NCBI RefSeq assembly: GCF_014773275.1
Contig: NZ_JACWMW010000001.1
Coordinates: forward strand, 806,001-870,000
Reading direction: 5' to 3'
DNA length: 64,000 nucleotides
Source of the DNA: Mucilaginibacter rigui
GTDB taxonomy: Bacteria; Bacteroidota; Bacteroidia; Sphingobacteriales; Sphingobacteriaceae
Positions 46,031 through 64,000 of the stretch are shown in pieces. The translations under genes and the position numbers were made by a program. Within the stretch, counting starts at the first letter, position 1. The number at the start of each line of letters is the position of its first letter. The notes below the pieces were generated by a model. The model ran no database searches. It was not told the DNA's origin and saw nothing but the letters and a program-made list of their open reading frames with translations.

Positions 46031-46633
46031 TTAAGGGGTTATTGACTTTATAATACCGGTAATAGCGTCCCTTAATACCTGCCTGTTTATTTTGTCTGAG
46101 TCGCCGCGGTCTAACAGATTGATTGATACCAACCCATGTACCACCGACCAAAAAGTATAATATTTGGTACAAATAATATCCGACTCCATGTCCTGTATAT
46201 TCATCAGGTCGCCAATTGAACCGGTAATAATATCCCATGGTAATCCTGCTTCGGGTAATTCATTAACCATTTTGCAGGCACAACTGGTTGTAATGCCAAA
46301 CATACCCTGGTAAAGCTCTTTATTTGCAAACGCGAAGTTCCAGTAGGTAAGCCACATTTCCTCCAGCTGATCAGCCGGTGATGTATGCTTATCCTTAGCT
46401 TCCTGTAGTTGTTTTGATAATTTTAAATAACCCTGGCGGTTTAGCTCTAATAATATGGCCTCTTTGCTGGCAAAATATTCATAAATAATAGGGGCAGTGT
46501 ATTCAATCACATCCGCTATTTTACGCATACTCAACGCCTGCCATCCTTCTTCCTTAACAATTTGTAAAGCGGCCTCCAGGATGTTCACCCGGGTTTCCTC
46601 TTTCAATCGTAATATCCTATCCTTACTGGCCAT
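46031..46633 (-). CDS. TetR/AcrR-family transcriptional regulator
   Basis: A 200-residue regulator with an N-terminal TetR HTH (ILEAALQIVKEEGWQALSMRKIADVIEYTAPIIYEYFASKEAIL, about 18-62) and a ligand-binding C-terminal half. The matched operator at its own promoter and at the efflux promoter supports repression of both. The inducing compound is unknown. Confidence 0.93.
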   Translation of the reverse strand: MASKDRILRLKEETRVNILEAALQIVKEEGWQALSMRKIADVIEYTAPIIYEYFASKEAILLELNRQGYLKLSKQLQEAKDKHTSPADQLEEMWLTYWNFAFANKELYQGMFGITTSCACKMVNELPEAGLPWDIITGSIGDLMNIQDMESDIICTKYYTFWSVVHGLVSINLLDRGDSDKINRQVLRDAITGIIKSITP

Positions 46634-47260: not shown

Positions 47261-49834
47261 TTAAAAATCAAATTTCACAAAGAACCTGATACCGCTGCGT
47301 GGCGCACCCGGGTGATCCAGGTAAGTAAAACGCCTTACATAATCAATCCGCAACAGTTTAAATATGTTACCTACACCCACGCTACCTTCAACATAAGGGG
47401 TAGAACCTAAGGCATAAGTACCGGCACCGTTTGCACCTACACTGCCCGGAAAGCGCAACAGTGATGGGTCGTTAGCGGGGTCGTTCTCTTTACGTACACC
47501 GCCCCAAAGGCTTTTTACGTCGATGATCTCACGTAATTTTAATCTTTTTAACAACGGGATACGGTTAAATATAAAGCCGTTAAAATTATGGTCAACAGCA
47601 ATGCTGGCGTAATGGTCGCTCACAAACTCCTGGAAGTTCATTAAGTTGTACGATTGCAGCTGGAACGCATACGTTTGGTTGGCGTGGTGTATATCCAGTA
47701 AAGGGAAAGGCACCTTGCCAAACAGATAACCGCCTTCGGTAGTTACATCGGTAAAGCCAAACTGCGACAGATAAAAACGTTTGTTAATATTACCTACAAC
47801 GTTCTGGTAATTGTACTCGCCACCTAACAGCCCTTTAACTCCCTGGGTATAGTTAAGGGTAAAAATAGGGTACTTGTCAGGTATTGGTGTGCGGTACAGT
47901 TTGCCCTGGTAAAATTTCTCGTGTGGCGCCCAGCGTAACTGTGCCGATAACTCTGATGTTTGGATCAGGTTAACATTGTTTAAACTGCCGTTTGGCAACA
48001 AATTCTGGTAAAGTAAGGCACCGGCAGGTGTTTGGTTCCATTTTTTGAAACCTAACGAGTACGACAGGTGATTGGTAAACTCGTGAACATAATCTAACCT
48101 GAAGATATCATTGTATAACCAGATATCGTTTGCGCCACGTTTAAATGACAACAGGAAGTTACTCTCCTGTACAAACTGAAGCTCCTGGCCCGGTATTTTG
48201 GTATCGTGCTGGAAACTTGCGCGGATATAGTTTTGCGGGAACGAGTAGATAGATTTATTGTTAAGTGAGTAAGTACTGCTTAAAAAGTATTTAAATTTTT
48301 CATCGCGGGTACCGTAAGCACCGTAAGTTTCAAAATAATAGCGTTTGCTCAGGGTAGGAGTAGTACGGCCGCCAATACGTACGCGGAAACCTTCTACCGG
48401 GTTAAAGCTGTAAAATGTATTGGCCGGGCCTAATTCAAAGGCGCCAAAATTTTTGTAACCGGCCAGCACCAGCGTGGCAATATCCATTGTTTTTTTGAAC
48501 GATGGGATGGTTTGCAGGCTATCTATGTTCTTATAAATACTTGCCGATGCCGCGTCCAGTGTATCAGGGCGGGTCATTTGCCAGTAGGTGTCGTCTTTAT
48601 CTTCGGCGTTTAAAGCAACAACCTGTGCCGGGCCTTTGTAAGTATCGTTAGTGCGCGCATTGTTTATAACAAAATTGCTGATGCTTACCAGGCGTTCGCC
48701 ATATATACCACCACCTTTATTTTTGTTGATACCGAACTCTATCTTCAGGTCGCTTTGGCTCAGGTGGTAACGGCCATCGTTGTTCTTCTCGAACGACAGG
48801 TTGGCCTGCATCTGGCGCACAAAGTTTAAGTTGATGTTTTTGTTAACGGTAAGCATCGCGTTTTGCACGGCGTAGTTACCATCCATAGTGATATAGATCT
48901 TTCCTTCAAACAACAGGTTGTTTGTATTACGCGGTGTAAAGCTAAGCTCAATAAGGTTTGGTTTTACATCTTTAAGGGTATCGGTAATAAAGAATTTGTA
49001 AAACTCGGGCGAGCTGTTGGCAATTGGGCTTAGCAACTGGTTACTTAATAACGATACATTGTTATCATAGATATTAATATCCTGATACATGCGGTTAAAG
49101 TAAGCGGTAAGGCCCTGATTATCTACAAAGTTCTCGTCATATTTTACCTGCTTGTTAGCAGTGATGATCTGCTTTTTGGCGTATGGGTCTTTACGGAAGT
49201 AATTATCAGACATTTTCTCTTCCTGGTACATGGGTAGTAAGGTTTTACCACCTATAGCAGTAGAATCCTGCTCACGAAACAGGAACTGATAATTTTTAAA
49301 GATCTTTTTGTTGCGGAATTTATCGCTCAGGTTACTTAAAGAGAAGTTCATGCGTTCGTACTGTTTGTACTCGGCATAGTTATAGTTCTCTACCTGGTTT
49401 TGTGCTTTATGGGCAATAACCTGGCGGATAAGCTCGACAGCAGGATTGTTTTTATTGGTGTATTTTTTCTTCTTGCCAGAGCGTATTACCACTTCGCTTA
49501 ACGCCTGGCTGTTCTCTGCCAAGGCAATGTTGATGGTTTGATCCTGGCCCTGGGTAATGTTACGAACAGCGGTACGGTAACCAACAAATGATGCCTTGAT
49601 TTGCGTAACAGTATTATCAGTAGTTGATAAAGTATAGCGGCCCTGGCCGTTTGTGCTGATGCCTTGTGTTGTACCGGCAAATGATACCGTTACGTATGGC
49701 ATGGCTTCTTTTGTTTTAGCATCGGTAACAATACCACGCACAATAGTTTGCGCGTGCAGCGTCGTAAACGACGTAAACAGTATAAGCATCATTAAGATGC
49801 TTTTATTATAAAGGGGAGTGAGTAAACGTTTCAT
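47261..49834 (-). CDS. DUF5686 outer-membrane protein with CarboxypepD_reg domain
   Basis: An 857-residue protein: signal peptide (TTLHAQ), CarboxypepD_reg-like domain (about 30-110, VRGIVTDAKTKEAMPYVTV), then the DUF5686 region (NPAVELIRQVIAHKAQNQ) and a C-terminal beta barrel ending FFVKFDF. This family is common in Bacteroidota and of unknown function. It sits between a small unknown gene and marR in one transcription unit. Confidence 0.9.
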   Translation of the reverse strand: MKRLLTPLYNKSILMMLILFTSFTTLHAQTIVRGIVTDAKTKEAMPYVTVSFAGTTQGISTNGQGRYTLSTTDNTVTQIKASFVGYRTAVRNITQGQDQTINIALAENSQALSEVVIRSGKKKKYTNKNNPAVELIRQVIAHKAQNQVENYNYAEYKQYERMNFSLSNLSDKFRNKKIFKNYQFLFREQDSTAIGGKTLLPMYQEEKMSDNYFRKDPYAKKQIITANKQVKYDENFVDNQGLTAYFNRMYQDINIYDNNVSLLSNQLLSPIANSSPEFYKFFITDTLKDVKPNLIELSFTPRNTNNLLFEGKIYITMDGNYAVQNAMLTVNKNINLNFVRQMQANLSFEKNNDGRYHLSQSDLKIEFGINKNKGGGIYGERLVSISNFVINNARTNDTYKGPAQVVALNAEDKDDTYWQMTRPDTLDAASASIYKNIDSLQTIPSFKKTMDIATLVLAGYKNFGAFELGPANTFYSFNPVEGFRVRIGGRTTPTLSKRYYFETYGAYGTRDEKFKYFLSSTYSLNNKSIYSFPQNYIRASFQHDTKIPGQELQFVQESNFLLSFKRGANDIWLYNDIFRLDYVHEFTNHLSYSLGFKKWNQTPAGALLYQNLLPNGSLNNVNLIQTSELSAQLRWAPHEKFYQGKLYRTPIPDKYPIFTLNYTQGVKGLLGGEYNYQNVVGNINKRFYLSQFGFTDVTTEGGYLFGKVPFPLLDIHHANQTYAFQLQSYNLMNFQEFVSDHYASIAVDHNFNGFIFNRIPLLKRLKLREIIDVKSLWGGVRKENDPANDPSLLRFPGSVGANGAGTYALGSTPYVEGSVGVGNIFKLLRIDYVRRFTYLDHPGAPRSGIRFFVKFDF

Positions 49835-50387: not shown

Positions 50388-52955
50388 TTAGATCCTGAAG
50401 TTTAGTGACACATAAGGATACCAGCCCTCTTCAGAATGGCCTGCTAATACCTGTAAAATTGTTAAGCTGGCCGGCGAAAAGTACAAGCCACCACCAACGC
50501 CATGGTGCCATTTGTCAGATTTTTCTCCATCGGCCCAAACGCGGCCGGTATCATAAAACCCGCTTAAGCCCAACTGGCCGGGGATAATGTAACTGGCAAT
50601 ATTAAACAGTTTAACCCGGCCTTGCAGGTTATTGTAAACCATGTTTTTACCTGCGAAACGATACTGCAGATAACCCAGCAAATTACCCTGCCCACCTAAA
50701 AACATCGACTGGTAAAAAGCGGGTTTGCCAACGCTTACGCCACCACCAATACGGTCTGATAGTACAACTGAACCATTATGGGTTAATTTTTGGTAAAAGG
50801 TAAACTCAGGTCTTATCTGCATAAAATCTTCCGAGAAATTATTTAAGCCTTTATAGCCTTGCAGTGATATATTGATATAATAACCGCCGGTTGGCAAAAT
50901 GCCGCCAATACGCTTGTTGCTGTTAAAGTTTACCATCAAACCCAAATGCGCCTTGTCCTTGTTAACTGTCAGGCTATCGTACGAGCCAATAAGCGAACTA
51001 TGGCTGATTAGCCTGCCTACGTTATCGTCCAGGTCTAACCGGTAATACTGAAACGATGGGCCTGCGCTGATGGTGCTGCCTTTGCCGGTATGCCAGCGCA
51101 GGGCAGGGTCAACCTGGTAGGTATCAAAGCGGGTACGGTAATACCTGCGGTAATTGGGTTGTTGTTTATTTAAAACGGTGTTATTACCCAGCCCAAAAAA
51201 GTTTACGGTGTTATCAGGCGCCTGTGCGAAAACCTGAAGCGTGAAATCGGCTTTGCCAATAGCCTGGATCCATTCGCCGTTATATTTTATACGGAAGGCA
51301 TCGGTACCAAAGGCATGTGTAAGCATCAATTGCTGCGAACTGGTGTACGGCAATTTGCGGAAACCATCGTTTTTTGTGTATTTAAACCCAAGGCCCAGCA
51401 AAAAGCCGTCATCGGCATTGATGGCTGCGGTTGCAAGCGGCATCCATATATTGTATGGGTTGGTAGGCACAAAACGCGTGTTGTTTGTATCGGCGCTAAG
51501 GTGTTTGCTTAACCTATTGGCCATGCCTTCAAATTTCACGTCTTTAGTATCGTAAACCCGCACTTTATTGGCCGATTGTGTTACATTGTAAACCTTGGTA
51601 CCGCCGCTGCCTACCAACCTTAAATTTACAGGAGAGGTAGTATTGTTGATGGCAATGTTGTCATCCCCGGCAGAGGTGTATAGCCTTATTTCTTTTGTGT
51701 ATTTGGGGCTATAGGCTACAGATAGGATGGTATCCTTCACCTCGCCGTCTTTGTTTATTTTATTTACCTGCACCAACAGGCTGCTATCGGGCAGGCCTGT
51801 AATTACTACCTTTTCGTTTTTGTCGCTCAGGCGAATATCCGCGTAGCGATAAATTAAACGGTAGTATTTATCCATAGCTTCGGGTAAGGCATCGCGGCGG
51901 GCCTTTAGTTTAGCCAGTAAAACATCGTGCCCCATTTTGTATGTGTCGCCGGGCAATAGGCGTAGGCTGGCTTCTAAAACCTGGTCGTTTTCTGCAGCTA
52001 CAAATTCATGGGTTACGCGCATCCATTGCTCGTGGCTCATCTGCGCATTTGCATAAGGGTTTATAAAGCGGGTTTTGTATATGCCGTATTTGTAATTCGG
52101 TTTAGCCGTAAAATCGCCCAGTACGGGGTTAATATATGGTAATGCGGCTATATCCGGAAACAGTCCCTCCTCCAGGTGAAATACCTGGTCGCGGTCGCGG
52201 GGTACGCCTAAATAAGCTTTTCCCTTTTTTGTTTTGGTTTCGGCCCAGCGCCATTGGTCTTCGTGGCGGTCCCAGTCGCCAATTAAAAAATCGAGCAGGC
52301 GGGCGCGTAAAAAGGCTTCGCCATCAAAGGTATTGTCGTTGTCCTTTACCAGGTTCGCCAGCATTTTTATGGAGTTGTCAGAATTGCCTATAGGTTCGCG
52401 CTCTTCCAGCAGGCAAACCAGGTTGGCAAATACTTTGCGATATTCACCAAGTGCTTCATCATCTGCTACAACACCAATAACCGGGTTGGCATGGGGCACA
52501 CGCGCGGCATCAGCCAGCGGTGGTACAACCAACGCCGAAAAAGGATGCTGCCCGCTTAAGGCATCATCAAGCCAATCCACTGCGAAGGTTTCGCGCAGGG
52601 CTTCGGGCAAAAGCTTATCGGGGGTTTTCTCCACACTGCGGATCACCCATTCCCTGCCGCTTTTATCTTTAAGACGTAGTGACTTCGACTGCATACCGCC
52701 TCCTTCTTTTTCGGGTGTTAAACCACCGTAAATTTCAGAGATGCGGATAATCGGCAGTTTTACAGCGGTGGCCCATTCCTTACGGTAATTATTGCCAAAA
52801 AACCAGCGGTGCACGCCGCCAACCTTATCATACCTGGGGTGTACCTTTACCACCACACTATCGCGAAATATAGCTTTTGGGGCAGGTGCCTGTGCGTAGG
52901 TGCATAATACTGCCACCGGCAGCGTTATAGTTGTAATAAGTAGCTTTTTAAGCAT
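50388..52955 (-). CDS. Large outer-membrane Omp85-like barrel with N-terminal atypical-kinase-like domain
   Basis: An 855-residue secreted protein (signal peptide ending LCTYAQ). Residues about 80-270 contain a glycine loop (GGGMQSKSLRL), VIRSVEK (possible nucleotide-binding Lys/Arg, R106 and K110), LIGDWDRHEDQW (D229, R230, H231) and GVPRDRDQVF (D254, D256). This order resembles Fam20/HipA/PI-kinase-like folds, where DRHxxN/D and a following D hold metal and ATP. The C-terminal 350 residues form an Omp85-type barrel ending SLNFRI. It is last in an operon with polyphosphate kinase. The kinase resemblance is motif-level only; related Bacteroidota proteins often join phosphoesterase domains to this barrel. 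Confidence 0.75.
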   Translation of the reverse strand: MLKKLLITTITLPVAVLCTYAQAPAPKAIFRDSVVVKVHPRYDKVGGVHRWFFGNNYRKEWATAVKLPIIRISEIYGGLTPEKEGGGMQSKSLRLKDKSGREWVIRSVEKTPDKLLPEALRETFAVDWLDDALSGQHPFSALVVPPLADAARVPHANPVIGVVADDEALGEYRKVFANLVCLLEEREPIGNSDNSIKMLANLVKDNDNTFDGEAFLRARLLDFLIGDWDRHEDQWRWAETKTKKGKAYLGVPRDRDQVFHLEEGLFPDIAALPYINPVLGDFTAKPNYKYGIYKTRFINPYANAQMSHEQWMRVTHEFVAAENDQVLEASLRLLPGDTYKMGHDVLLAKLKARRDALPEAMDKYYRLIYRYADIRLSDKNEKVVITGLPDSSLLVQVNKINKDGEVKDTILSVAYSPKYTKEIRLYTSAGDDNIAINNTTSPVNLRLVGSGGTKVYNVTQSANKVRVYDTKDVKFEGMANRLSKHLSADTNNTRFVPTNPYNIWMPLATAAINADDGFLLGLGFKYTKNDGFRKLPYTSSQQLMLTHAFGTDAFRIKYNGEWIQAIGKADFTLQVFAQAPDNTVNFFGLGNNTVLNKQQPNYRRYYRTRFDTYQVDPALRWHTGKGSTISAGPSFQYYRLDLDDNVGRLISHSSLIGSYDSLTVNKDKAHLGLMVNFNSNKRIGGILPTGGYYINISLQGYKGLNNFSEDFMQIRPEFTFYQKLTHNGSVVLSDRIGGGVSVGKPAFYQSMFLGGQGNLLGYLQYRFAGKNMVYNNLQGRVKLFNIASYIIPGQLGLSGFYDTGRVWADGEKSDKWHHGVGGGLYFSPASLTILQVLAGHSEEGWYPYVSLNFRI

Positions 52956-52981
52956 CGGATAGGGTTTTTAGGAGTTAATAA

Positions 52982-53887
52982 TTAACGGTTATACTTAAAC
53001 AGCAGGATATTACCATTCGTTACTTTATCGCCTTCGTTTGAGATATACAGGTTGCCCTGTTTGTCGAAAGCCATTCCTTCGGGCTGTAAAAATGTTTTGC
53101 CACTGATAGGGTAGGCCTGTAATACTTTCCATTGCTCATCAAGCACAACAATTAATTTGTTTACTGATGAGAGTATATACCATTGCTTTGTTAACGGGTT
53201 TTTAGCCAGGGCAGATGGATGGAACCTGAGCTTGCCCTTGCCAATTAATGCAGATATTTTCTGTACATCAATAGTAAAGGTACCGCTTTGGGTAATGGTG
53301 CCATCAGCAGCTAAATTAAATATATAGCCGTTGCACTCTTTGTTATGATCTTTACCGGCGCATTGTTTGCAAAGCGCGTATAGTTTGCCGCCGTCGGCAT
53401 GCAGGCCTTCGTATTCGCCTGTTGGTAATATTTTCTTAAATTCTTTTACGTTGTTTATTTGCCCGGCCTTAACTTCTGTTAACGGGAAACTGAACAAACT
53501 GCCATCACTGCGTAGCATAACTGCCTGGTTGTTTAATATGGCCACATCCTCATAATCGCCGGCTTTGCCAAATTTGGCGTGGCTAACCTTACTATCGCCG
53601 GGGCGGAAGTAAAAGATCTTGCCTTCCTCGTCCTGCTCGGCATAAATGGTGCTTGCGTCACCGTTGTTAAAGGCAATGCCCGAGATCTCCAGTAGTTCTG
53701 TCGGCATATCATATTTTACCGGGTTGCTAAGATCATAACCTGCCGGGCTTGCACTGCTAACCGTAGCTTTTTTACCATGCGATGCTTTTTTACCGTCGGC
53801 ATTTTTCTTTTTACCCTGGCTGCATGATGTGCCCACAATGCCTATACATAATAAGGAGAAGATGATGGCTGTTTTTATATTTTTCAT
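52982..53887 (-). CDS. SdiA-regulated-like beta-propeller lipoprotein
   Basis: A 301-residue lipoprotein (signal ending IVGTSC) with a low-complexity lysine-rich linker and a propeller of the SdiA-regulated type (LLEISGIAFNN, TIYAEQDEEGKIFYF, YEGLHADGGKLYALCKQC, FHPSALAKNPLTKQWYILSSVNK, LQPEGMAFDKQGNLYISNEG). Its ATG overlaps the ppk1 stop by 4 bases, so translation is coupled. A binding rather than catalytic role is most likely. Confidence 0.8.
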   Translation of the reverse strand: MKNIKTAIIFSLLCIGIVGTSCSQGKKKNADGKKASHGKKATVSSASPAGYDLSNPVKYDMPTELLEISGIAFNNGDASTIYAEQDEEGKIFYFRPGDSKVSHAKFGKAGDYEDVAILNNQAVMLRSDGSLFSFPLTEVKAGQINNVKEFKKILPTGEYEGLHADGGKLYALCKQCAGKDHNKECNGYIFNLAADGTITQSGTFTIDVQKISALIGKGKLRFHPSALAKNPLTKQWYILSSVNKLIVVLDEQWKVLQAYPISGKTFLQPEGMAFDKQGNLYISNEGDKVTNGNILLFKYNR

Positions 53888-55926
53888 ATTATCCTGTCGA
53901 GGTTTAAATATTGATAAATGGCCTTTTGCGATTGAACGGCTTCGCCGGTTATCTGTGGCTTAATTTGGTTAAGGTGCTGGTCAATTGCCACGGCTTGTGC
54001 ATTATCACTTAGTTGTAAATTAATTAATGCGGTTATTTGTTGTTTGATGGCCGTATCATACACCGGGAAGCAAACCTCTATGCGGTGGTAAATGTTCCGG
54101 TTCATCCAATCAGCCGATCCCATAAATATTTCGGGATCGCCATTATTATTGAAGATAAATATACGCCCATGCTCCAGGTAGCGGTCAACAATGCGTTTAA
54201 TGATAATGTTTTCGCTAAGGCCTGCCACACCCGGCACCAGGCAGCAGATTCCCCGGATGATCAATTGGATATTTACTCCCGCCTGTGATGCCTCGTAAAG
54301 TTTATCTATCATCACCCGCTCTTCCAGGTTGTTCATTTTAATGATGATGGAAGCAGATTGGCCTTGTTTAGCGAGTTTTATTTCGCGATCTATCAGGCTT
54401 AAAAAGTCGGTTTGCAGGTTAAAGCCGGCTACCAGCAGGTGTTTAAAATCTATTTGTGTTTTTGGCGATGGTTTTTCGCGTTTAGCCAAAAAGATAAATA
54501 ACAGTTCCACCTCGCGCAAAATATGGGGGTTGGTGGTCAGCAATATGTGGTCGGTATAAAACCTGGCGGTGCCCTCGTTAAAGTTACCTGTGGCCAACAA
54601 ACCCGAGTAAGTTATTCTATCGCCGTTGCGGGTTTTAACCAGCGCTATTTTGGCGTGTACCTTTAAAGCGGTTACACTGTAGATGATCTGCACACCGGCG
54701 TTCTTCATCTTTTTTGCCCACTTAAGGTTGTTGGCTTCGTCAAAACGGGCCTTTAACTCAACCACCACTTTAACCTTTTTGCCGTTTTTGGCAGCGCTTA
54801 TCAGGGCGTTCACAATTTTCGAATCGCTTGCCACACGGTAAAGTGTAACGTTTATTTCTTCAACATCGGGGTTGTTGGCAGCCTCGTTAAAAAAACGCAG
54901 TATGGTATGGTACGATTGATAAGGCGTATTCACCAGCAGATCGCCTTTAGCCATAGTAGCAACTAAAGGCTCATTATTAGGTACAGGTAAATTTATAGCC
55001 GGCCATTTATCATATAGCAGGGCAGGGGTGTTTACGGGTAAGCTGTAAAAATCTTTCAGATTATGGTACCTGCCGCCTTCTACGGTGCCCGCGTTTTGCA
55101 GGCCAAGGTGTTGGATAACCAATTGCAGTAGGCGTAGCGGCAGATCGGCCTGGTGCAAAAAACGTGTGGCCAGGCCGTTATCGCGCTTTTGCAATTGTTT
55201 TTCTATCTGCTCAGATAACTCGCCGGGGTATTCGTCCTTCAAATCAAGTTCGGCATCGCGGGTTATCTTGATACTGTAACAGCCTTCAATTGTGGATGTT
55301 TTAAAAAGCTTATCCAGGTTAAAGCGGATAATATCATCCAAAAAACAAATGAACTGCTCCCCCTCGCATTTTGTACTGTAAAACCGCGGTAACTCGTCCG
55401 ACGGGATGTTTAACAAGACCATCTTTTCTTCAACTGCATCGCGCAGCTGTATAACAAAGTACAACTTATTGTTTTCGGGGAAGAAGGTAGTGTCCTCATT
55501 CAAAACAACGGGCTGTAAAAAAGCAAGCACTTCTGCCAGGAAATAATCGGTGAGTTCTTTTTCTAAGGCAGAGGGCAGCTCGCCGTTGTAAAGCAGCGTT
55601 ATTTTATTGGCCTTTAATTCAGGGATAAGCTCTTTGGTCAGGATCTCTCCAAAACGCTTTTGTTGCTGCAAAACGGTTTTGGTAGCCTGCTGCAAAATGT
55701 TGTCCTGCTCGTCGGCATCGATCTCATCGCTTTTTTTGCCGATGTTTTTCAAGGCTTTGAGTACGGGGATACGCACCCGGTAAAACTCATCAAGGTTGGA
55801 AGAGTAGATAGACAGGAACCTGATGCGTTCTATTAAAGGTACAGATACAGAGGCTGCTTCTTCCAGCACACGGCCATTAAAGCTCAGCCAGCTAATATCC
55901 CGGTTAAAATATATAGCGTTCAGCAT
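53884..55926 (-). CDS. ppk1: Polyphosphate kinase 1
   Basis: A 680-residue PPK1. It opens YFNRDISWLSFNGRVLEEA and contains the core blocks ARFDEANNLKWAKKMKNAG, LKVHAKIALV (phosphorylated His), YSGLLATGNFNEGTARFYTD and IFIFNNNGDPEIFMGSADWMNRN. The enzyme makes polyphosphate from ATP and can run in reverse. It is flanked in the same operon by an HD-PycTM protein (3 bases before) and a coupled lipoprotein gene. Confidence 0.96.
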   Translation of the reverse strand: MLNAIYFNRDISWLSFNGRVLEEAASVSVPLIERIRFLSIYSSNLDEFYRVRIPVLKALKNIGKKSDEIDADEQDNILQQATKTVLQQQKRFGEILTKELIPELKANKITLLYNGELPSALEKELTDYFLAEVLAFLQPVVLNEDTTFFPENNKLYFVIQLRDAVEEKMVLLNIPSDELPRFYSTKCEGEQFICFLDDIIRFNLDKLFKTSTIEGCYSIKITRDAELDLKDEYPGELSEQIEKQLQKRDNGLATRFLHQADLPLRLLQLVIQHLGLQNAGTVEGGRYHNLKDFYSLPVNTPALLYDKWPAINLPVPNNEPLVATMAKGDLLVNTPYQSYHTILRFFNEAANNPDVEEINVTLYRVASDSKIVNALISAAKNGKKVKVVVELKARFDEANNLKWAKKMKNAGVQIIYSVTALKVHAKIALVKTRNGDRITYSGLLATGNFNEGTARFYTDHILLTTNPHILREVELLFIFLAKREKPSPKTQIDFKHLLVAGFNLQTDFLSLIDREIKLAKQGQSASIIIKMNNLEERVMIDKLYEASQAGVNIQLIIRGICCLVPGVAGLSENIIIKRIVDRYLEHGRIFIFNNNGDPEIFMGSADWMNRNIYHRIEVCFPVYDTAIKQQITALINLQLSDNAQAVAIDQHLNQIKPQITGEAVQSQKAIYQYLNLDRII

Positions 55927-55929
55927 AAT

Positions 55930-57189
55930 TTATTTATGGCCTTTACTGTACAATGCCGAAGCAATAATAAATGCCAGCACAGCGGCAATAAGCCCAAACA
56001 TAAATATGTTATAAGCAATGCGCAGTAAGCGGTATTTTTTACCTAATACAACCCCCTGCGCGTACACATCTTTTATTAAACTACCGTACAAAAACTCTTT
56101 GTCTTCCATCATTTTTACCATGCCGTAGGTGTAATCCTCAAGTGGCATTTTGTAAAAATTACCAAAGAACAGGAGGTTAACGCGGCGTTCATCCACATCT
56201 GCCCGCTTAAATATCCCGGTTGGAATAGAGGGACGGGTAGCCAGGATAGAGAAGGTCATGGCCAGCAGGCTGATTGATAAAAGTATAAATGTAGGAATGG
56301 TTAAATATTCGTAATCGGTTAGTTTACGCAACAATAAACTGATCACCGCCGACAGGATAATGGAGTTAACCGTTATCATAATATGAGCCTTGTTATCGGC
56401 CATGTCGCTCAGTCGCTGGTGGTTGCTGCTACTGATCCGAAACATGGTTTCGATACCTTTATCAGGGCGGTCGGCTTTCTTTTTTTTACCGTCTTTTTCC
56501 GGTTTTGCAGAATCGTCGTCAACGGTGGTTATTGCTGTTTCTTGCATGGTCTCGGTATGTTTTTCTTCCGCTTTATCTTCCGCCTTTTTTTCGGCAGCGG
56601 CTATTTTGTTTTTTAATGTTTGGATGTTGGCTTCTTTTCCGCTGTTCAAAAGCAACTGGCAGTAATCGGTATGGTAGTGGTGCTCCTCTAAAAAGTGGAT
56701 GCTTTTGCGGCGCCACTCCAGTTTGCTCAGGTCTTTATGGTACAGGGCGTTAATTTCTTTTAAAAGCTGTTTGTCCTTTTTAAAAAAGTCATCGGTGCCT
56801 AAATGAAAAAGGTCTGCATCACAAATTATCTTATCCAGCAGGGTAACTGGTTTTTGCGGCATTTGGGTAGCCAGTATACAGCCTTTTATTGCATCAATAT
56901 CTTCATCGTTTGCATTGTGCTTTTGCAAAAAGTTTAGAGCCAGTACAGCGCTTTGGGCTTCGTGGTGTGCAATATCAACCATATAACCCAGGTCATGAAA
57001 CCACGCAGCAGCTTGTACAATAAAAAAATCGCGGTCATTAAGCTGGTAATGGTTGCCAATTTGCATGGCAGCAGCAACCATATCTTCGGTATGTCCCTTG
57101 TCGTGGTATATTAGCTTGTCATTGGCATGCGTTTTATAATATGCTAATGCGTATTCCCTTATATGGCGAAGTAATTCGGGGTAATTCAT
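55930..57189 (-). CDS. HD-domain phosphohydrolase fused to a PycTM (Pycsar-effector) membrane domain
   Basis: A 419-residue protein. An HD domain covers about 1-180, with H33, H65-D66 (AAWFHDLGYM) and a later Asp (CDADLFHLG, D124/D126) as metal ligands. A charged linker (about 190-250) leads to a two- to three-helix membrane domain with FRISSSNHQRLSDMADNKAHIMITVNSIIL, the signature of PycTM/DUF5706 Pycsar effectors, and a final helix near the C-terminus. HD enzymes of this class cleave nucleotides or phosphoesters. It is first in the operon with ppk1. Whether it is a housekeeping protein or an antiphage effector cannot be settled from sequence. Confidence 0.88.
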   Translation of the reverse strand: MNYPELLRHIREYALAYYKTHANDKLIYHDKGHTEDMVAAAMQIGNHYQLNDRDFFIVQAAAWFHDLGYMVDIAHHEAQSAVLALNFLQKHNANDEDIDAIKGCILATQMPQKPVTLLDKIICDADLFHLGTDDFFKKDKQLLKEINALYHKDLSKLEWRRKSIHFLEEHHYHTDYCQLLLNSGKEANIQTLKNKIAAAEKKAEDKAEEKHTETMQETAITTVDDDSAKPEKDGKKKKADRPDKGIETMFRISSSNHQRLSDMADNKAHIMITVNSIILSAVISLLLRKLTDYEYLTIPTFILLSISLLAMTFSILATRPSIPTGIFKRADVDERRVNLLFFGNFYKMPLEDYTYGMVKMMEDKEFLYGSLIKDVYAQGVVLGKKYRLLRIAYNIFMFGLIAAVLAFIIASALYSKGHK

Positions 57190-57207
57190 GATGTGTATTT
57201 AGATAAG

Positions 57208-57215
57208 CAAATGTA
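57208..57215 (-). promoter_or_regulatory. -7 element of the HD-PycTM/ppk1 operon
   Basis: TACATTTG on the minus strand, 18 bases before the ATG at 57189, fits TAnnTTTG. The -33 element is not evident. The leader would be about 12 bases. Confidence 0.5.
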
Positions 57216-57311
57216 AAGCCCAACACTTTTTTATACCCGTGCTTGACCCTATGAACCGTAAATTTGAGTTACTTTGGTATAAATATAAAAATTAATAATT
57301 AGCTGCACCTT

Positions 57312-57917
57312 ATGAAGTTAGTCTGCAATAAATACTTACTGTTGTTTTTGGCTGTTATACAGTTTATTACGTATGTGCAGAATGTAAAAGCTCAATCTCA
57401 AATTCAACAGTTTGATGACAGAGTGATGATTAACCTGGCCGAGAACCGTACTCCGGCCCAAACAGAGGTGGCTCTTTTTTTATCGCGTAATTACATGTAT
57501 GGGGATATAGGCGTACCTGCCGCCCTGCTTGTAGGGGGCATTATACGCAACGACAGGCAAATGCGCGAAAATTCGCTTTATGTAGCCAGCAGTACCGCTA
57601 TTACTTACGGCCTTACTTTATTAATAAAGCACCTGGTTAAACGCCCGCGCCCATTTGTGCAAAATATAAATATAATACCCGTTTACCGGGCGGGGAGTAC
57701 ATCATTCCCTTCCGGGCATTCGTCTACCACTTTTTCAACGGCAACAGCATTGTCAAGCGCGTACCCAAAGTGGTATGTAATAGCGCCCGCGTTTTTATGG
57801 GCGGGTGCAACAAGCTATTCGCGCATGTACCTTGGTGTACATTACCCAAGCGATGTGGCAGCAGGAATAGCTTTGGGTACCGGAACTGCCTTATTACTAC
57901 AGCCTTTAAAACGATAA
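57312..57917 (+). CDS. PAP2-family phosphatase
   Basis: A 201-residue membrane-associated acid phosphatase with an N-terminal signal or anchor. All three motifs are present: KRPRP, PSGHSS and SRMYLGVHYPSD. Such enzymes act on phosphatidate, undecaprenyl pyrophosphate or similar lipids at the outer face of the membrane. It is divergent from the polyphosphate operon. Confidence 0.92.
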   Translation: MKLVCNKYLLLFLAVIQFITYVQNVKAQSQIQQFDDRVMINLAENRTPAQTEVALFLSRNYMYGDIGVPAALLVGGIIRNDRQMRENSLYVASSTAITYGLTLLIKHLVKRPRPFVQNINIIPVYRAGSTSFPSGHSSTTFSTATALSSAYPKWYVIAPAFLWAGATSYSRMYLGVHYPSDVAAGIALGTGTALLLQPLKR

Positions 57918-58055
57918 CCGCCATTTAAAAGTAAACTTAACTGACTTTTTTTACGCAACAGTCATAAACAATATATAAATATACCGTTAGGTTGATATAA
58001 TATTTAAATTTGTGATGAATTTGATGGTGCTAATAAGGCGCCTTGTAAGCAACTC

Positions 58056-60431
58056 ATGAATTTTAAGCCATTTGCAGATAGTCCTTTCCAGATACGTATA
58101 TCATTCCATGTATTGATACAGCGTTTAGAAGAACAGGCCGCTTTAAAAGACGGAATGCGATCTGCCTTGGCGCAAGAAATTCTGGACGAGATTGAGCCTT
58201 ACCCCGAACTGAGAGAAGGTATTACCGATACCGACCAGATCATTAAACATGCAGGCATTATTAAACGTTTAACCGGGGATATATTTCCCGAAGCGCTTAC
58301 CCTTAACGAGATCAAAGCTATCTCGGTGCCTTTTCAGGATGTGCTGTTTAACCAAACACAGCGCCTGCAAAATATTATAGCGGCTGCCGGGTCGGCATTT
58401 GATATTAACATCAGGGATTTTACCGAGCACCAAATATATGTGAGCAGTTGCTGTATTATTATGAACGAGTTTTATGGCACCGATTTTAATTTTTCGAGGC
58501 CCTGGTTCTATGATATACCCGATGCCAAAGGTGTGATAAAGCATTACCGTATTTTATATAACGCGGATTTTATGGATCTGGTGCCAACACCCGGCGCACC
58601 CGTACTTACTGCGGAAGATATTGAACTGCTGCGCGATAATTATGACGACCTTAGCCTGTGGAAAAAATATTTCCCTAAGGATAGCTGGACACTAAAAGGA
58701 TTTGCCATATTAACCCTGTTTGATGCTACTGTTGAGAATGCGGTATCGTCATTAAAAGGAACTTTGCTTGGCGCTACATACGGCAATAATTTAGAAGGTA
58801 AATTTTTAGATGTTTTCCGCTCTATATATAAGCTTCCTAACCTCAATATAGGGTTCACATCATTTAACGACGCCGAGAACACCTTTTCTATAGCTACATT
58901 TAACCCTAACCTTAAAAGTTACCTGCTGCCCGATCATGTAGAAGAAGAATGTTTCGATACGCTTTGTACACGATCATTAAGCAAATTGGTTCAGGAAAAA
59001 ACTTATTTCGCTATATCAGATGTAGCTAAATATTTGCAGGCCGAACCTGATAATGTAATGGCACAGCGCTTTTTAGAACAGGGTATAAAAAGTATGATAC
59101 TGGCACCCATTGTAAAGAACGGACATTTGTTGGGCATTATTGAACTGGTATCAAACAACGTAGGCGAACTGAACAGTATTAATGCAAACCAACTGGAAAA
59201 CGTATTGCCCTATATTACCGATACCATTGACAAGCAGTATAGTAACATCCAAAACCAGATACAGGCAGTTATTCAAAACGAATACACAACCATACACCCA
59301 AGCGTTTACTGGAAGTTTAAAAAAGAGGCGGTAAAATTCCTCCAGTATCGCGGATTAAAGAAAGATTATGCTTTAAAAGAGGTAACCTTTCATGATGTAT
59401 TCCCGCTTTATGGGCAAATTGATATAAAGGGTTCATCAGATACACGGAATAAGAGTGTGCAACTCGATTTGCAAGAGCAATTAACAGCACTCATACCCAT
59501 TATTGAACAATTACACCTCAGTAATAAGGACAGTGATGCCGAGCAGCATGTACGCAACCTGCAGGAGTATGTAATGGATGTACAAAGCGCGTTACGGGCC
59601 GACACCGAGCAGCAGATCCAAAACTATTTAGAACTGCACATCCATCCATTATTAAAAGAAACGGATGATTTGCCGGTAAAAACCAAAACTGCTATAGAAA
59701 AATATCTTACACAGGCAGGTAAAGAGGGCGATTTTCATCAAAACCGCCGTAAGTATGAAACCACGGTTGCCATGATCAACGAAAAAATGGCCCTGCTGCT
59801 TGATAGGGCACAGGTGCAGGCGCAGGAGGTGTTCCCTCATTATTATGAGCGTTTTAAAACCGATGGAATAGAACATAACCTGTATATAGGTGCAACCATA
59901 GCCCCTGCAAAAAACTTTGATATATCCTATTTATACAACTTGCGCCTTTGGCAATTACAGGTGTTGTGCGAGATGGAACTTGAACACCATTACCTAAAGC
60001 CATACCTGCCATACGCGCTTGATGTTACCTCGTTGATATTGGCCTTCAGTCTGCCTATGTCTATCCGCTTTAGGATGGATGAGAAAAGGTTTGATGTAGA
60101 TGGTACGTATAACGCCCGGTTCGAGATCGTAAAAAAACGTATTGATAAAGCCGTTATTAAAAACACTACCGAGCGTTTAACTGCCATTGGTAAGCTCACA
60201 ATTGTGTATTCTAACCACGATGAAGAGGTAGAATACAAAAACTATATCCGTTTCCTGCAAACCCAAAAAATGCTTGAAGACGAGATTGAAATGCTTGACG
60301 TAGAGGATTTGCAGGGTGTATCGGGTTTAAAGGCGTTGCGCGTGCGCATCCGTTATAATACCAGTTTGCCGGTGCGTAAATTCTTTACCTATACCGAAAT
60401 GCAACAGCAGGCAAAAACTATATCTATATAA
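58056..60431 (+). CDS. Large GAF-domain protein of unknown function
   Basis: A 791-residue soluble protein. A GAF domain is visible around residues 290-390 (KLVQEKTYFAISDVAKYL, FLEQGIKSMILAPIVKNGHLLGIIELVSN). The N-terminal 290 and C-terminal 400 residues match no domain I recognise; the C-terminal part is helical and coiled, with a pattern like a scaffold. No kinase, cyclase or HTH output is present. It stands alone after the PAP2 gene. A ligand-controlled protein-protein role is possible. Confidence 0.8.
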   Translation: MNFKPFADSPFQIRISFHVLIQRLEEQAALKDGMRSALAQEILDEIEPYPELREGITDTDQIIKHAGIIKRLTGDIFPEALTLNEIKAISVPFQDVLFNQTQRLQNIIAAAGSAFDINIRDFTEHQIYVSSCCIIMNEFYGTDFNFSRPWFYDIPDAKGVIKHYRILYNADFMDLVPTPGAPVLTAEDIELLRDNYDDLSLWKKYFPKDSWTLKGFAILTLFDATVENAVSSLKGTLLGATYGNNLEGKFLDVFRSIYKLPNLNIGFTSFNDAENTFSIATFNPNLKSYLLPDHVEEECFDTLCTRSLSKLVQEKTYFAISDVAKYLQAEPDNVMAQRFLEQGIKSMILAPIVKNGHLLGIIELVSNNVGELNSINANQLENVLPYITDTIDKQYSNIQNQIQAVIQNEYTTIHPSVYWKFKKEAVKFLQYRGLKKDYALKEVTFHDVFPLYGQIDIKGSSDTRNKSVQLDLQEQLTALIPIIEQLHLSNKDSDAEQHVRNLQEYVMDVQSALRADTEQQIQNYLELHIHPLLKETDDLPVKTKTAIEKYLTQAGKEGDFHQNRRKYETTVAMINEKMALLLDRAQVQAQEVFPHYYERFKTDGIEHNLYIGATIAPAKNFDISYLYNLRLWQLQVLCEMELEHHYLKPYLPYALDVTSLILAFSLPMSIRFRMDEKRFDVDGTYNARFEIVKKRIDKAVIKNTTERLTAIGKLTIVYSNHDEEVEYKNYIRFLQTQKMLEDEIEMLDVEDLQGVSGLKALRVRIRYNTSLPVRKFFTYTEMQQQAKTISI

Positions 60432-60462: not shown

Positions 60463-61698
60463 CTAAGCTGTTGCCGGTTGAGGATGCCTTATCAGTTTTT
60501 TCCTCGCCGGTTTTTTCTTTTTAATGCGGTTTAACCACATCATTACGCCTGTAACCGGGAAGATGCATGCCAGCAGGCAAATAACAAAACTGATTATCTT
60601 GGTGGGCAAGCCATAAACCGAGCCGGTGTGTACAGGTTTAACATATGAGCGCACCCGCTGCCCCAGGCTTTTATCGGCAAATAACTGGGCGGCTACAACG
60701 GTGCCTTGGTATTGATCTAAGTTATAACTGTCAGAAGCGTTCTCGGTTTTGCCCTGTTCTAAAACATTGATGCTATACGTTCCTGCAGAATCACGTGGGG
60801 GGCGGATGCTGTAAAACTCGGCGGTTTTTATTTTGTCGCCAACACTTGCCAGCGCCTGCTCAAACGTTAAAGGTTTTAAGCCGGCCTTGTACTTTGATTT
60901 GGGGGCTTTTGCTTCGTCTTTTTGCTGTTTTGAGCCCGTTATGGCATACAGGGCATTGTTAGCCCACTTAAACGACATAACCAACCCGGTTAATACAATT
61001 ACGATGAGGAACAGGGAGGTATAAAAGCCGGTAACAATATGCAGGTCGTGTGTTAGGCGTTTGCCGCTACCGTTAAACTTTATTTTAAGGCGCTGGCGCA
61101 TAATGTTCCTGGTTTTTGGCCACCACAAAATTACCCCGGTAATTAATATAAACAGGAACAGCAGGGTAGAGATGCCTACTGCCGTATCGCCAACGCTATC
61201 TTTACCAGCCAATAAAAAGCGGTGCAGCATTTCTACCGTAAATAAAAAAGATTGCCTTTTGCTGTACTGGCCTAAAAGCTCGCCCGTGTAGGGGTTTACA
61301 AATATGGTAATATTAGCACGGGCGTTTTCTTTCGGTTTTTTATCCTTCACATCGCCGGTTTTGCCTTTTTCGGCAGGGGCTTCTTTTTTGTTGATGCCTT
61401 TGTCTGCTTTGTTCTTTTTCTCGGGTATTATGGCGCCAATTTCAACCGAGCGTTCCGCATCATTATAAACCATTACAGATGCCAGTTTTGCTTTGGGTAA
61501 CTGTTTTAAAGCGCCTTTTACCAACTGCTGTAATGGCAGCTTTTGGCCACCTGGCGTTACGTAATAACGTTCGGGATGAAGCCTGTGGTTTATTTCTTTT
61601 TCAAAAACCAGTATGGTGCCTGTAATGCATGAGCATAGTATTACAACGCCCGCGGCAAGGCTTAAATAAAGGTGAATGTTGCGGAAGAATATTTTCAT
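60463..61698 (-). CDS. PepSY-associated membrane protein of an iron-uptake locus
   Basis: A 411-residue protein with PepSY-TM architecture: helix 1 (LYLSLAAGVVILCSCITGTILVF), a long lysine-rich periplasmic loop, further helices (TAVGISTLLFLFILITGVILWWP, LHIVTGFYTSLFLIVIVLTGLV) and a C-terminal helix. Family members sit beside siderophore receptors and are thought to be ferric-reductase-like. It lies 61 bases downstream of the TonB receptor. Confidence 0.88.
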   Translation of the reverse strand: MKIFFRNIHLYLSLAAGVVILCSCITGTILVFEKEINHRLHPERYYVTPGGQKLPLQQLVKGALKQLPKAKLASVMVYNDAERSVEIGAIIPEKKNKADKGINKKEAPAEKGKTGDVKDKKPKENARANITIFVNPYTGELLGQYSKRQSFLFTVEMLHRFLLAGKDSVGDTAVGISTLLFLFILITGVILWWPKTRNIMRQRLKIKFNGSGKRLTHDLHIVTGFYTSLFLIVIVLTGLVMSFKWANNALYAITGSKQQKDEAKAPKSKYKAGLKPLTFEQALASVGDKIKTAEFYSIRPPRDSAGTYSINVLEQGKTENASDSYNLDQYQGTVVAAQLFADKSLGQRVRSYVKPVHTGSVYGLPTKIISFVICLLACIFPVTGVMMWLNRIKKKKPARKKLIRHPQPATA

Positions 61699-61759
61699 TC
61701 GTTTTAATGATAAAACCGGGCTTGTTTGGCAAGCCCGGTTTATTTTTTGAGTGTAGCTA

Positions 61760-64000
61760 TTAAAGTTTGTAGCTTAAGGTGGTTAAAAACTGCCTTGGCG
61801 GTATAGGGTTCACACTATAGTTTTCGTGCACGTTCCAGTTAAGTACGTTGCCTATGTTTGATACTTTACCAATGATAGATAGCTTTTTATAGGTATAACC
61901 TACAGATGCATCAACCGTGGTGAATTTTGGTACAGATACTAACCTCGACGCCGGCAGCGGCTGCCCTGTAGCAGGGTATACGTTGTTGAAACCGGCAATG
62001 CGGTTACCCAGGTAATAAACCGATGCGCCAACTTTAAAGCCCTTAAGGCTGCCATCATAAAAATTATAGAAGGCGCTTGCATTGGCTGTGTGCTTTGGCA
62101 CGTTAAGCAACGGCTCGCCGGCTATGTTCCTGCCGGGTATGGCAGGGTTTACATAACGTGCGTTGGTATAGCTGTAACCCGCCAACAGGTCAAGGCCCTT
62201 AACGGGGTGGCCCGCAATATCAAGCTCTATACCATCGCTTTTAGTTTTGCCCGCCAGCGTTTTAATATTGCTATTGGTATTAGGCGTTACACCATCGGGG
62301 CCAAAAGGTGCCTTTTGCGCAAGGTTATTATTAATGATGCGGTATGCAGTAACGTTTACAGATAAATTACCATTCAGGAAATCGTTTTTAACACCCGCCT
62401 CAAACTGATCTATCAATGAAGGATCGAGCGGGTTGTTGTTAACATCGGTACCGGTATTAACAACAAACGAGTTTGAATAGCTGGCAAATAAAGCGGTGTT
62501 GGCAAGCGGTTTGTAAACGATACCTACCCGTGGCGAGAATGCCTTATCTTCCTTACCTTTTGCCTGCGCAGTTAAGGCCGTGCTGTAATAATTGGTAACG
62601 GTAGTAGGCGATATGTATTGGTATGACCAGCGTATGCCCGCTAACACCTTCACTTTCTCTGATAAGCTGATCAGGTCATTAAAGTACGCGCCAAAACGGT
62701 TGGTTGGGGTAAGCACATTGTAAAAAGGGTTCATGTTAGGCTTATCTGTACGTTGCGTGTATTTGTCCAGGTCAAATATGTTGATGGTATCATAAATACC
62801 CGATTGCAATGCGCCGTTTTGATCAAGGTAACTTGATGCACCGCCTACGGTAGCCACGTAAGTATAGTTGGTATTGCGGTACCAGTCGGCATCAACGCCT
62901 GCTAAAATATTATGTTTAACAGCGCCGGTGTTAAACTCTCCGTTAACGTTAAACTGGCCTGTGAAATAATCCTCAAGTGTTTTAGTGCGGTTAAGGTTAC
63001 GTTTCCAGTCGCCAACGTTATCGGGCTGTATGCGCTCTGTAGTTTGGTACTGGCGGTCAAAATGCTGGTATGATAAACCTCCGCTCAGTTTCCACAGGTT
63101 ATTTATCTGGTGGTTAATGGTAGCTGTAGCAGTGGTTTGCTTTGTATTACCGGTTGACCATAAAGCACCTAAGTACCTGTTGCGCGGAACATTGGCTATG
63201 ATGTTATTAACCTGCCCGGTACCAAAATCGGGCGTAAAGTCATAATTCAGATAATCGCCTTCAACAATAATGTTTGTTTTATCGCTTATTTTATAAAGTA
63301 ACGATGGGTTAATATAAAACCTTTCAGATTTTACGTTGTCGCGGTAGCTGTTTGCTTTTTCATAGGTGCCATTTAAGCGGTAAGCTAATTTGGATGATAT
63401 AGGGCCGTAAACATCAAACGCAGGTTTATACAGGTCATAGCTGCCATAAGTCATAGATACCCGGCCTCCCTGCTCAAACTGAGGTTTTTTAGTAACCAGG
63501 TTTAATATACCACCCGGTGCAACGTTACCGTAAAGCATGGCTGCGCTTCCTTTTAAAATTTCAACACGTTCTAATGAACTTATCTCTGGCATTACGCCCG
63601 AATTAACCCTAAAGCCGTTCTTGAACATATTGGTACTTGAAAAGTTATAGCCACGTGCAGCAAAGGTTTCCTGCGTGTTGCCGCGGGCGCTGTACAGGTA
63701 AACGCCATTTACATTTTTAATAACATCACTAAGGCGCAGGGATTGCTGCTGATCAAGCACATCGCGGCCAATAACCGACACGCTTTGCGGCAGATCAATA
63801 GGGGCAACGCTCATTTTGCCAATGCTCAGGTTTTTGCGGTTGATAGTTTTGGTAGATGATATTACAACCTCATTTAAGGCTGTTGAGGTTTCTGAAAGTA
63901 CAAATTCAATGTTAACAGTTTGGCCTTCGGAAACGGTTGCCGTTTTTTCTTCACTTTTTGTGCCTGTGTACGATGCTTTTATAGTGTAAGTGCCGGGCTT
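61760..64000 (-). CDS. TonB-dependent siderophore receptor, 5' end cut by window edge
   Basis: At least 746 codons are visible; the frame continues unbroken to base 64000, beyond an internal ATG at 63814. It shows the end of a CarboxypepD_reg-like domain (KPGTYTIKASYTG), the TonB-box-like ALNEVVIS segment, the plug (DLPQSVSVIGRDVLDQQ, VAPGGILNLVTKKP) and a barrel ending LTTLSYKL. The plug matches ferric-siderophore receptors of the FhuA/FpvA type. The ligand is unknown. The downstream PepSY gene supports iron uptake. Confidence 0.92.
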   Translation of the reverse strand, partial: KPGTYTIKASYTGTKSEEKTATVSEGQTVNIEFVLSETSTALNEVVISSTKTINRKNLSIGKMSVAPIDLPQSVSVIGRDVLDQQQSLRLSDVIKNVNGVYLYSARGNTQETFAARGYNFSSTNMFKNGFRVNSGVMPEISSLERVEILKGSAAMLYGNVAPGGILNLVTKKPQFEQGGRVSMTYGSYDLYKPAFDVYGPISSKLAYRLNGTYEKANSYRDNVKSERFYINPSLLYKISDKTNIIVEGDYLNYDFTPDFGTGQVNNIIANVPRNRYLGALWSTGNTKQTTATATINHQINNLWKLSGGLSYQHFDRQYQTTERIQPDNVGDWKRNLNRTKTLEDYFTGQFNVNGEFNTGAVKHNILAGVDADWYRNTNYTYVATVGGASSYLDQNGALQSGIYDTINIFDLDKYTQRTDKPNMNPFYNVLTPTNRFGAYFNDLISLSEKVKVLAGIRWSYQYISPTTVTNYYSTALTAQAKGKEDKAFSPRVGIVYKPLANTALFASYSNSFVVNTGTDVNNNPLDPSLIDQFEAGVKNDFLNGNLSVNVTAYRIINNNLAQKAPFGPDGVTPNTNSNIKTLAGKTKSDGIELDIAGHPVKGLDLLAGYSYTNARYVNPAIPGRNIAGEPLLNVPKHTANASAFYNFYDGSLKGFKVGASVYYLGNRIAGFNNVYPATGQPLPASRLVSVPKFTTVDASVGYTYKKLSIIGKVSNIGNVLNWNVHENYSVNPIPPRQFLTTLSYKL

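Follow-up and report, generated by a model that had tools for sequence, protein, structure and literature searches.

PycTM is, to our knowledge, known solely as an antiphage effector. It has been summarised as a pore-forming effector (PMC11224242), and the Panoptes paper shows that membrane effectors restrained by nucleotides are possible (PMC12657218). Here we describe a PycTM domain encoded in a 64,000-nucleotide stretch of the Mucilaginibacter rigui genome (assembly GCF_014773275.1, contig NZ_JACWMW010000001.1, positions 806,001 to 870,000), which we refer to as the window. The domain is fused to an HD domain, and the gene for this HD-PycTM protein lies in a cluster with genes for a second polyphosphate kinase 1 (PPK1-B), a lipoprotein-like protein and an outer-membrane protein (OMP) that is predicted to carry a kinase-fold domain. 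We propose, as a reading to which we give an even chance, that the cluster is a vertically inherited envelope-signalling module in which HD-PycTM, a putative nucleotide hydrolase-effector, would be coupled to PPK1-B polyphosphate and to envelope proteins of kinase-fold and phosphatase type.

Two described systems come closest. The window PycTM is homologous to the membrane domain of the antiphage system Pycsar, and in one family from another class (f41) a stand-alone PycTM adjoins a class III cyclase gene. In contrast to Pycsar, the window PycTM is fused to HD, has no local cyclase, and belongs to a syntenic, chromosomal and genus-wide cluster in which it stands beside PPK1 and outer-membrane proteins. 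Like the ppk1-ppx operon, the cluster pairs a phosphohydrolase with a PPK1 whose active-site motifs are intact; here, however, the PPK1 comes from a second clade, its partner is the HD-PycTM fusion, and the ppk1-ppx pair of the genome lies elsewhere. A preliminary description of this DNA could give the arrangement no name, and the open-licence full text searched for PycTM with an HD domain, DUF5706, and polyphosphate kinase with Pycsar or Omp85 does not describe the cluster. What is new is not PycTM by itself but the partnership of PPK1-B with HD and the Omp85 protein with its kinase fold.

The HD-PycTM fusion protein

HD-PycTM (419 amino acids; 55930-57189, minus strand) comprises an HD domain at about residues 1-200, a coiled linker and a C-terminal PycTM domain. 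The PycTM domain matches PF18967 at residues 289-399 (E=5e-33) and the PADLOC PycTM profile (E=5e-15), and hydropathy predicts transmembrane segments at residues 269-287, 298-316 and 395-413. With the single window sequence the HD domain stays under the Pfam threshold, and single-sequence searches of the PDB with HD-PycTM or the OMP returned nothing useful. A profile of the HD-PycTM family matches HD hydrolases (2pq7, E=2.9e-7; YedJ, E=3.9e-6), and the predicted structure (pLDDT 88.8) shows an HD fold that matches YpgQ, 2pq7 and 2pjq. The metal-ligand residues H29, H33, H65, D66, H76, E77, D124 and D126 are invariant in 36 homologues, and the His/Asp ligands are kept in almost all of 145 HD domains drawn from every context. 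Predicted fold and metal ligands together place the window domain among the HD superfamily hydrolases. In both respects it resembles YpgQ/YedJ-type HD hydrolases, and its YHN..H motif resembles that of class I phosphodiesterases, to which profile matches are weak; it differs from these enzymes in that its family is found fused to class III cyclases, PycTM, PPK1 or YitT.

Conservation in Mucilaginibacter and across Bacteroidota

Whole-genome searches recovered full-length HD-PycTM from 28 of 36 congeners. Just two of the negative congeners hold anything similar: a fragment in G018, whose genome is 61% complete, and a divergent copy in G030. The recurring order in the genus is HD-PycTM, PPK1, lipoprotein, PAP2-family phosphatase, OMP and GAF-domain protein, plus another OMP paralogue (L050 and L056); this order is variable, and PPK1 is missing or moved in G011, G023 and G033. 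The distribution indicates that the cluster is inherited vertically in these soil bacteria and was not recently acquired.

A scan of 84,980 species genomes found at least 549 relatives, the best 80 of which were retrieved as named loci, 79 of them usable. Among these best 80, the closest named relative is Mucilaginibacter aquariorum (81% identity), and relatives span Pedobacter, Sphingobacterium, Niastella, Chitinophaga, Dyadobacter, Spirosoma, Roseivirga, an Ignavibacteria metagenome-assembled genome (MAG) and others. The neighbours of HD-PycTM at the 79 loci are OMP (70), lipoprotein (65), GAF (60), PPK1 (46) and PAP2 (12), and at 44 named loci HD-PycTM and PPK1 are co-directional neighbours, mostly with overlaps of 1-4 bases or gaps of less than 50 bases. 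We further sampled 148 complete genomes of the phylum, in which full HD-PycTM occurs in 32, the OMP in 53 and the GAF protein in 27. Of the 32 HD-PycTM genomes, 31 also encode the OMP (p=1.5e-16), as do 46 of the 49 genomes with any PycTM of the family (Fisher p=5e-27), and HD-PycTM is present in 26 of the 27 GAF genomes (p=4e-22), all as values that take no account of shared ancestry. In 8 of the 32, among them members of families f33, f34 and f52 from other classes, PPK1 is separated from HD-PycTM by at most one gene, where about 0.2 such cases would be expected at random (binomial p=4e-12). In these three families (L171-L175), a gene for a SixA-like histidine phosphatase of about 165 amino acids stands between HD-PycTM and PPK1. 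From these comparisons the conserved core is HD-PycTM and the OMP, with the lipoprotein and the GAF protein. On conservation of gene order, which the preliminary description had put forward as a check, the linkage is kept both in the genus and across the phylum, in orders that vary.

A second mini-cluster (L034:1042-11221; G035:C5) consists of a stand-alone PycTM, an OMP and a GAF protein beside TetR and DUF5686 genes, whose products are 66-78% identical to the window TetR (46031-46633) and DUF5686 (47261-49834) proteins. Because the neighbours of the mini-cluster resemble these two window genes, DUF5686 may be a loose associate of the cluster.

A second polyphosphate kinase paired with HD-PycTM

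PPK1-B (680 amino acids; 53884-55926, minus strand) matches TIGR03705 with 688 bits against a cut-off of 466, all four PP_kinase domains are present, and alignment to the solved PPK 2o8r shows both active-site His motifs (KVHAK and YLEHGR). The housekeeping ppk1 of the same genome lies elsewhere, at C10, beside Ppx/GppA. No Ppx/GppA gene stands beside the window PPK1-B, those of the genome being found at C10 and C8. A simple replacement of Ppx was rejected, as Ppx/GppA is retained in every congener.

Full-length PPK1-B occurs in 25 of the 36 congeners, directly behind HD-PycTM in 24 and moved in the remaining one, G011. These copies are 58-85% identical to the window protein, and the housekeeping copies 41-47%. 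In a tree of 115 PPK1 rows, made by a quick method and holding some long branches, a single clade of 82 (SH-aLRT 96) takes in every one of the 72 copies linked to HD-PycTM and unites linked copies from several classes with one from an Ignavibacteriota MAG. Housekeeping copies of the same genomes (for example L201-L205 and L053) lie outside this clade. Inside it is an HD-PPK1 fusion of 896 amino acids, HD followed by a full PPK1, from a high-GC member of the Bacteroidota (G044; L167:108-2798, plus strand). The phylogeny and linkage indicate that PPK1-B is a paralogue dedicated to its HD-PycTM partner. HD-PycTM scattered without ppk1 had been named beforehand as an outcome that would overturn the proposed grouping; such scattering is seen in part, outside Sphingobacteriaceae, and the linkage within the genus holds.

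HD fusions and a possible cyclic nucleotide ligand

At least six genomes encode proteins in which an HD domain of the same family follows a class III nucleotide cyclase domain (PF00211, E=1e-46 or better; L213:3007-6939, L214:3428-6142, L215:2762-4666, L216:3087-4907, L217:2189-3775 and L218:3196-4809), and these proteins are candidate combined cyclase-phosphodiesterases. HD genes of this family adjoin cyclase genes in further genomes, that of M. rigui included, where a class III cyclase (L052:2593-5339; G000:C8) with a PADLOC PycC match (E=6.5e-23) is convergent with an HD-YitT-DUF2179 fusion. In family f41 PycTM is a separate protein, in the order OMP, TPR-containing class III cyclase, PycTM (L192:5646-8225 in G096; L193, up to 16603, in G164), with an extra separate HD gene right after PycTM in G164. 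Fusion of HD to PycTM, fusion of HD to cyclases and adjacency of cyclase and PycTM are thus three mutually consistent links, and they point towards cyclic nucleotides. A functional link between PPK1 and the OMP in f41 is not claimed, since PPK1 there lies about 13 kb from the OMP, in a generally syntenic block, and groups with the housekeeping copies in the tree.

An outer-membrane protein with a kinase-fold domain

The OMP gene (855 amino acids; 50388-52955, minus strand) encodes a signal peptide, a kinase-like domain, a beta-rich region and an Omp85 barrel, as assigned from PF01103 and the predicted structure. The barrel matches PF01103 at residues 594-819 (E=5e-9, 36.5 bits against a cut-off of 24). 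The 498 residues that follow the signal peptide were modelled with a pLDDT of 90.0, and Foldseek matches of the N-terminal domain in the PDB are CtkA (first, E=5e-6), PI4KII, a bacterial Ser/Thr kinase and HipT, with E-values from 5e-6 to 4e-4; at E<=0.001, 12 of 13 matches are kinase-like folds of probability 1.00. TM-scores are 0.27-0.34 by query and up to 0.54 by target, the pair 0.34/0.53 being graded moderate. Independently, a sequence profile pairs the DWDRHEDQW loop of the OMP with the DRHNGNW loop of CtkA, if only at E=0.23. In the numbering of the 498-residue fragment, 43 homologues share Gly63-65, D205, D207, H209, D232 and D234 without exception. The modelling indicates that this exported domain has a HipA/CtkA/PI4KII-like kinase fold, with a DRHxDQ loop that aligns with the CtkA DRHNGN; unlike those kinases, it is exported and shares a polypeptide with an Omp85 barrel and often with a metallophosphatase. 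Its position between signal peptide and barrel would place it in the periplasm. The preliminary description had read the protein as an outer-membrane protein and missed this domain.

Most orthologues are longer (about 1200 amino acids) and carry an additional N-terminal calcineurin-like metallophosphatase, which the window copy lacks; of 79 open reading frames of the OMP family in named loci, 50 exceed 1150 amino acids and 22 have 800-940. A second OMP paralogue in the M. rigui genome, 57% identical (L051:8052-11030; G000:C7:1016156-1019031), has behind it a remnant of PycTM that contains an internal stop.

Remaining members and limits of the cluster

The lipoprotein-like member (301 amino acids; 52982-53887, minus strand) is an SdiA-regulated/NHL beta-propeller protein (PF06977, E=1.4e-7) whose hydrophobic N-terminus, up to Cys22, is signal/lipobox-like. 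On the opposite strand, divergent from HD-PycTM, lie genes for an exported PAP2-family phosphatase (201 amino acids; 57312-57917, plus strand; PF01569, E=3.5e-24) and a GAF-domain protein (791 amino acids; 58056-60431, plus strand; GAF_2, E=5e-4). PAP2 adjoins or sits inside the cluster in many congeners and is an optional member. The family profile of the GAF protein matches GAF structures with E-values down to 5e-5; its C-terminal region is strongly conserved, and a profile search of structures gave no convincing solved relative for the C-terminal half. By its distribution, the GAF protein is a core member of the cluster in Bacteroidota.

The four minus-strand genes form a run at 50388-57189 with gaps of 3, -4 and 26 bases by open reading frame calling in the window, as the preliminary description had it. 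Its assignments of PycTM, PPK1, lipoprotein and OMP also hold up against Pfam, NCBIfam and the lipoprotein N-terminus, and that of HD against the family profile and predicted fold. The list of four was correct in its members and incomplete in extent: because PAP2 and GAF are divergent members of the conserved cluster at 57312-60431, its proper limits are 50388-60431. The divergent intergenic region (57190-57311) holds two TAnnTTTG elements, at 57208-57215 (minus strand) and 57259-57266 (plus strand), the former being a Bacteroidota-type -7 element, TACATTTG, ahead of HD-PycTM. The two elements are consistent with a divergent promoter pair, though such matches are no more frequent in the window than by chance (72 found against 82 expected), and scans for sigma-70 promoters and terminators gave chance-level results. 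The single promoter that had been proposed for the run is not demonstrated by this candidate element. The GAF gene has as neighbours, on the other strand, genes for a PepSY-like membrane protein and a TonB-dependent receptor (60463-63814, minus strand), by inspection a pair of siderophore-uptake type.

Proposed mechanism and alternative explanations

The gene content, the conservation, the PPK1-B clade, the HD ligand residues, the kinase fold and the HD fusions to PycTM, PPK1 and cyclases frame a model whose localisations, catalysis, ligand and direction of signalling we infer. HD-PycTM would be an inner-membrane protein whose HD domain faces the cytoplasm and there binds and hydrolyses a phosphorylated nucleotide, a cyclic mononucleotide being the leading candidate. 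Ligand occupancy or turnover would set the state of the fused PycTM membrane domain, and this state would be coupled to the synthesis, by PPK1-B, of a separate pool of polyphosphate. Components of the envelope would be read or modified by the beta-propeller lipoprotein and by the OMP, with its kinase-fold domain, Omp85 barrel and, where present, metallophosphatase. PAP2 would supply another phosphatase activity in the periplasm, and the GAF protein would act as a sensor in the cytoplasm. The gene content supports the earlier suggestion that the set spans the compartments from cytoplasm to outer membrane. Envelope signalling linked to polyphosphate or nucleotides, also suggested earlier, is the best reading of the locus, with the HD-PPK1 fusion, the cyclase-HD fusions and the separate PPK1 clade as independent links, and the cluster looks like one that links phosphate chemistry to the cell envelope rather than one for phage defence.

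Several observations weigh against this proposal. The disregard of shared ancestry in the co-occurrence statistics is one, and PPK1 is absent from 33 of the 79 HD-PycTM loci, so that it is dispensable for the core. No class III cyclase was detected in 9 of the 32 HD-PycTM genomes, G136 and G194 with a complete PPK1-containing operon among them. Because of G136, G194 and the others, and with a weak association with cyclase presence (p=0.07), a class III cyclic nucleotide was rejected as the universal ligand; in such genomes the ligand must come from a different enzyme or be a different molecule. In the OMP, the catalytic-loop Asn of HipA/CtkA/PI4KII kinases is replaced by Gln (Q212) and the probable beta-3 Lys by Arg (R84), residues beyond the loop having been mapped by eye, which makes activity of the kinase-like domain uncertain. 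The periplasm contains no ATP. Given these substitutions and the lack of periplasmic ATP, the modelled domain may be a pseudokinase or use a donor other than ATP. An extension of the proposal, which we rate as a long shot, has PPK1-B, gated by HD-PycTM, working with the periplasmic kinase-fold domain, which would phosphorylate envelope components from a non-ATP donor, since the periplasm lacks ATP; polyphosphate would be the obvious candidate, and the metallophosphatase and PAP2 would erase the marks.

Polyphosphate metabolism alone might account for the cluster, an explanation that we find doubtful and still take seriously. HD would then be a polyphosphatase or a direct regulator of PPK1-B that replaces Ppx, PycTM a mere anchor, and PAP2 and the metallophosphatase-kinase barrel would handle periplasmic phosphate or polyphosphate. 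The HD-PPK1 fusion and a separate PPK1-B clade tied to HD fit this explanation, but HD fusions are found mostly to cyclases and not to PPK1, and many HD-PycTM/OMP clusters do without PPK1. In its favour too, the housekeeping enzyme, PPK1-A, is accompanied by Ppx/GppA, no class III cyclase was detected in G136 and G194, which have the operon, and the HD-like domain of exopolyphosphatases is among the structural matches of HD. The Ppx match, however, is a weak one (E=0.03) that involves a domain without catalytic function, and PycTM is too highly conserved for a plain anchor.

We consider it unlikely that the locus is a diverged Pycsar system, in which a remote cyclase would make a cyclic pyrimidine upon infection, PycTM would permeabilise the membrane and HD would clear the signal against false triggering. 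The match of PycTM to effector profiles, the two class III cyclases of the M. rigui genome, of which the PycC-like one stands beside an HD paralogue, and the cyclase-PycTM adjacency in f41 favour it. Against it, class III cyclases (PF00211) do not occur in the window cluster on C6, the only matches in the genome being at C8 and C10, and the nine genomes noted above lack any. HD-PycTM is found in no phage records and in three plasmid records with any match, all non-mobilizable, and the partner genes encode envelope proteins. The patchy, mobile defence-island distribution that is a hallmark of Pycsar is not seen, the operon being conserved, chromosomal and syntenically inherited through most of the genus. 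Membership of Pycsar was rejected on the lack of an adjacent cyclase, the broad syntenic distribution and these phage and plasmid counts. The fusion of PycTM to HD with no cyclase alongside, as first described, is present in the window, and its antiphage implication falls on the same counts. The physical effect of PycTM on the membrane may still be similar to that in Pycsar. That the envelope and phosphate genes have no functional relation and stay together as a syntenic block through genome conservation alone is very unlikely: variable gene order, the missing or moved PPK1 of G011, G023 and G033, and co-occurrence inflated by shared ancestry would suit it, but the same genes re-associate across families and classes in differing orders and strands, with overlapping stops and starts and gene fusions, and this rearranged yet retained linkage largely refutes it.

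Under the envelope-signalling reading, the cluster gives PycTM a probable non-defence role. It also brings to light a paralogue of PPK1 that accompanies an HD signalling hydrolase in several Bacteroidota classes. The predicted export of a HipA/CtkA-fold domain to the periplasm, as part of an outer-membrane barrel protein, raises the question of bacterial kinase chemistry outside the cytoplasm. Culturable carriers in Mucilaginibacter, Pedobacter, Sphingobacterium and Dyadobacter make the role of PycTM, the PPK1 paralogue and the kinase-fold OMP directly testable.

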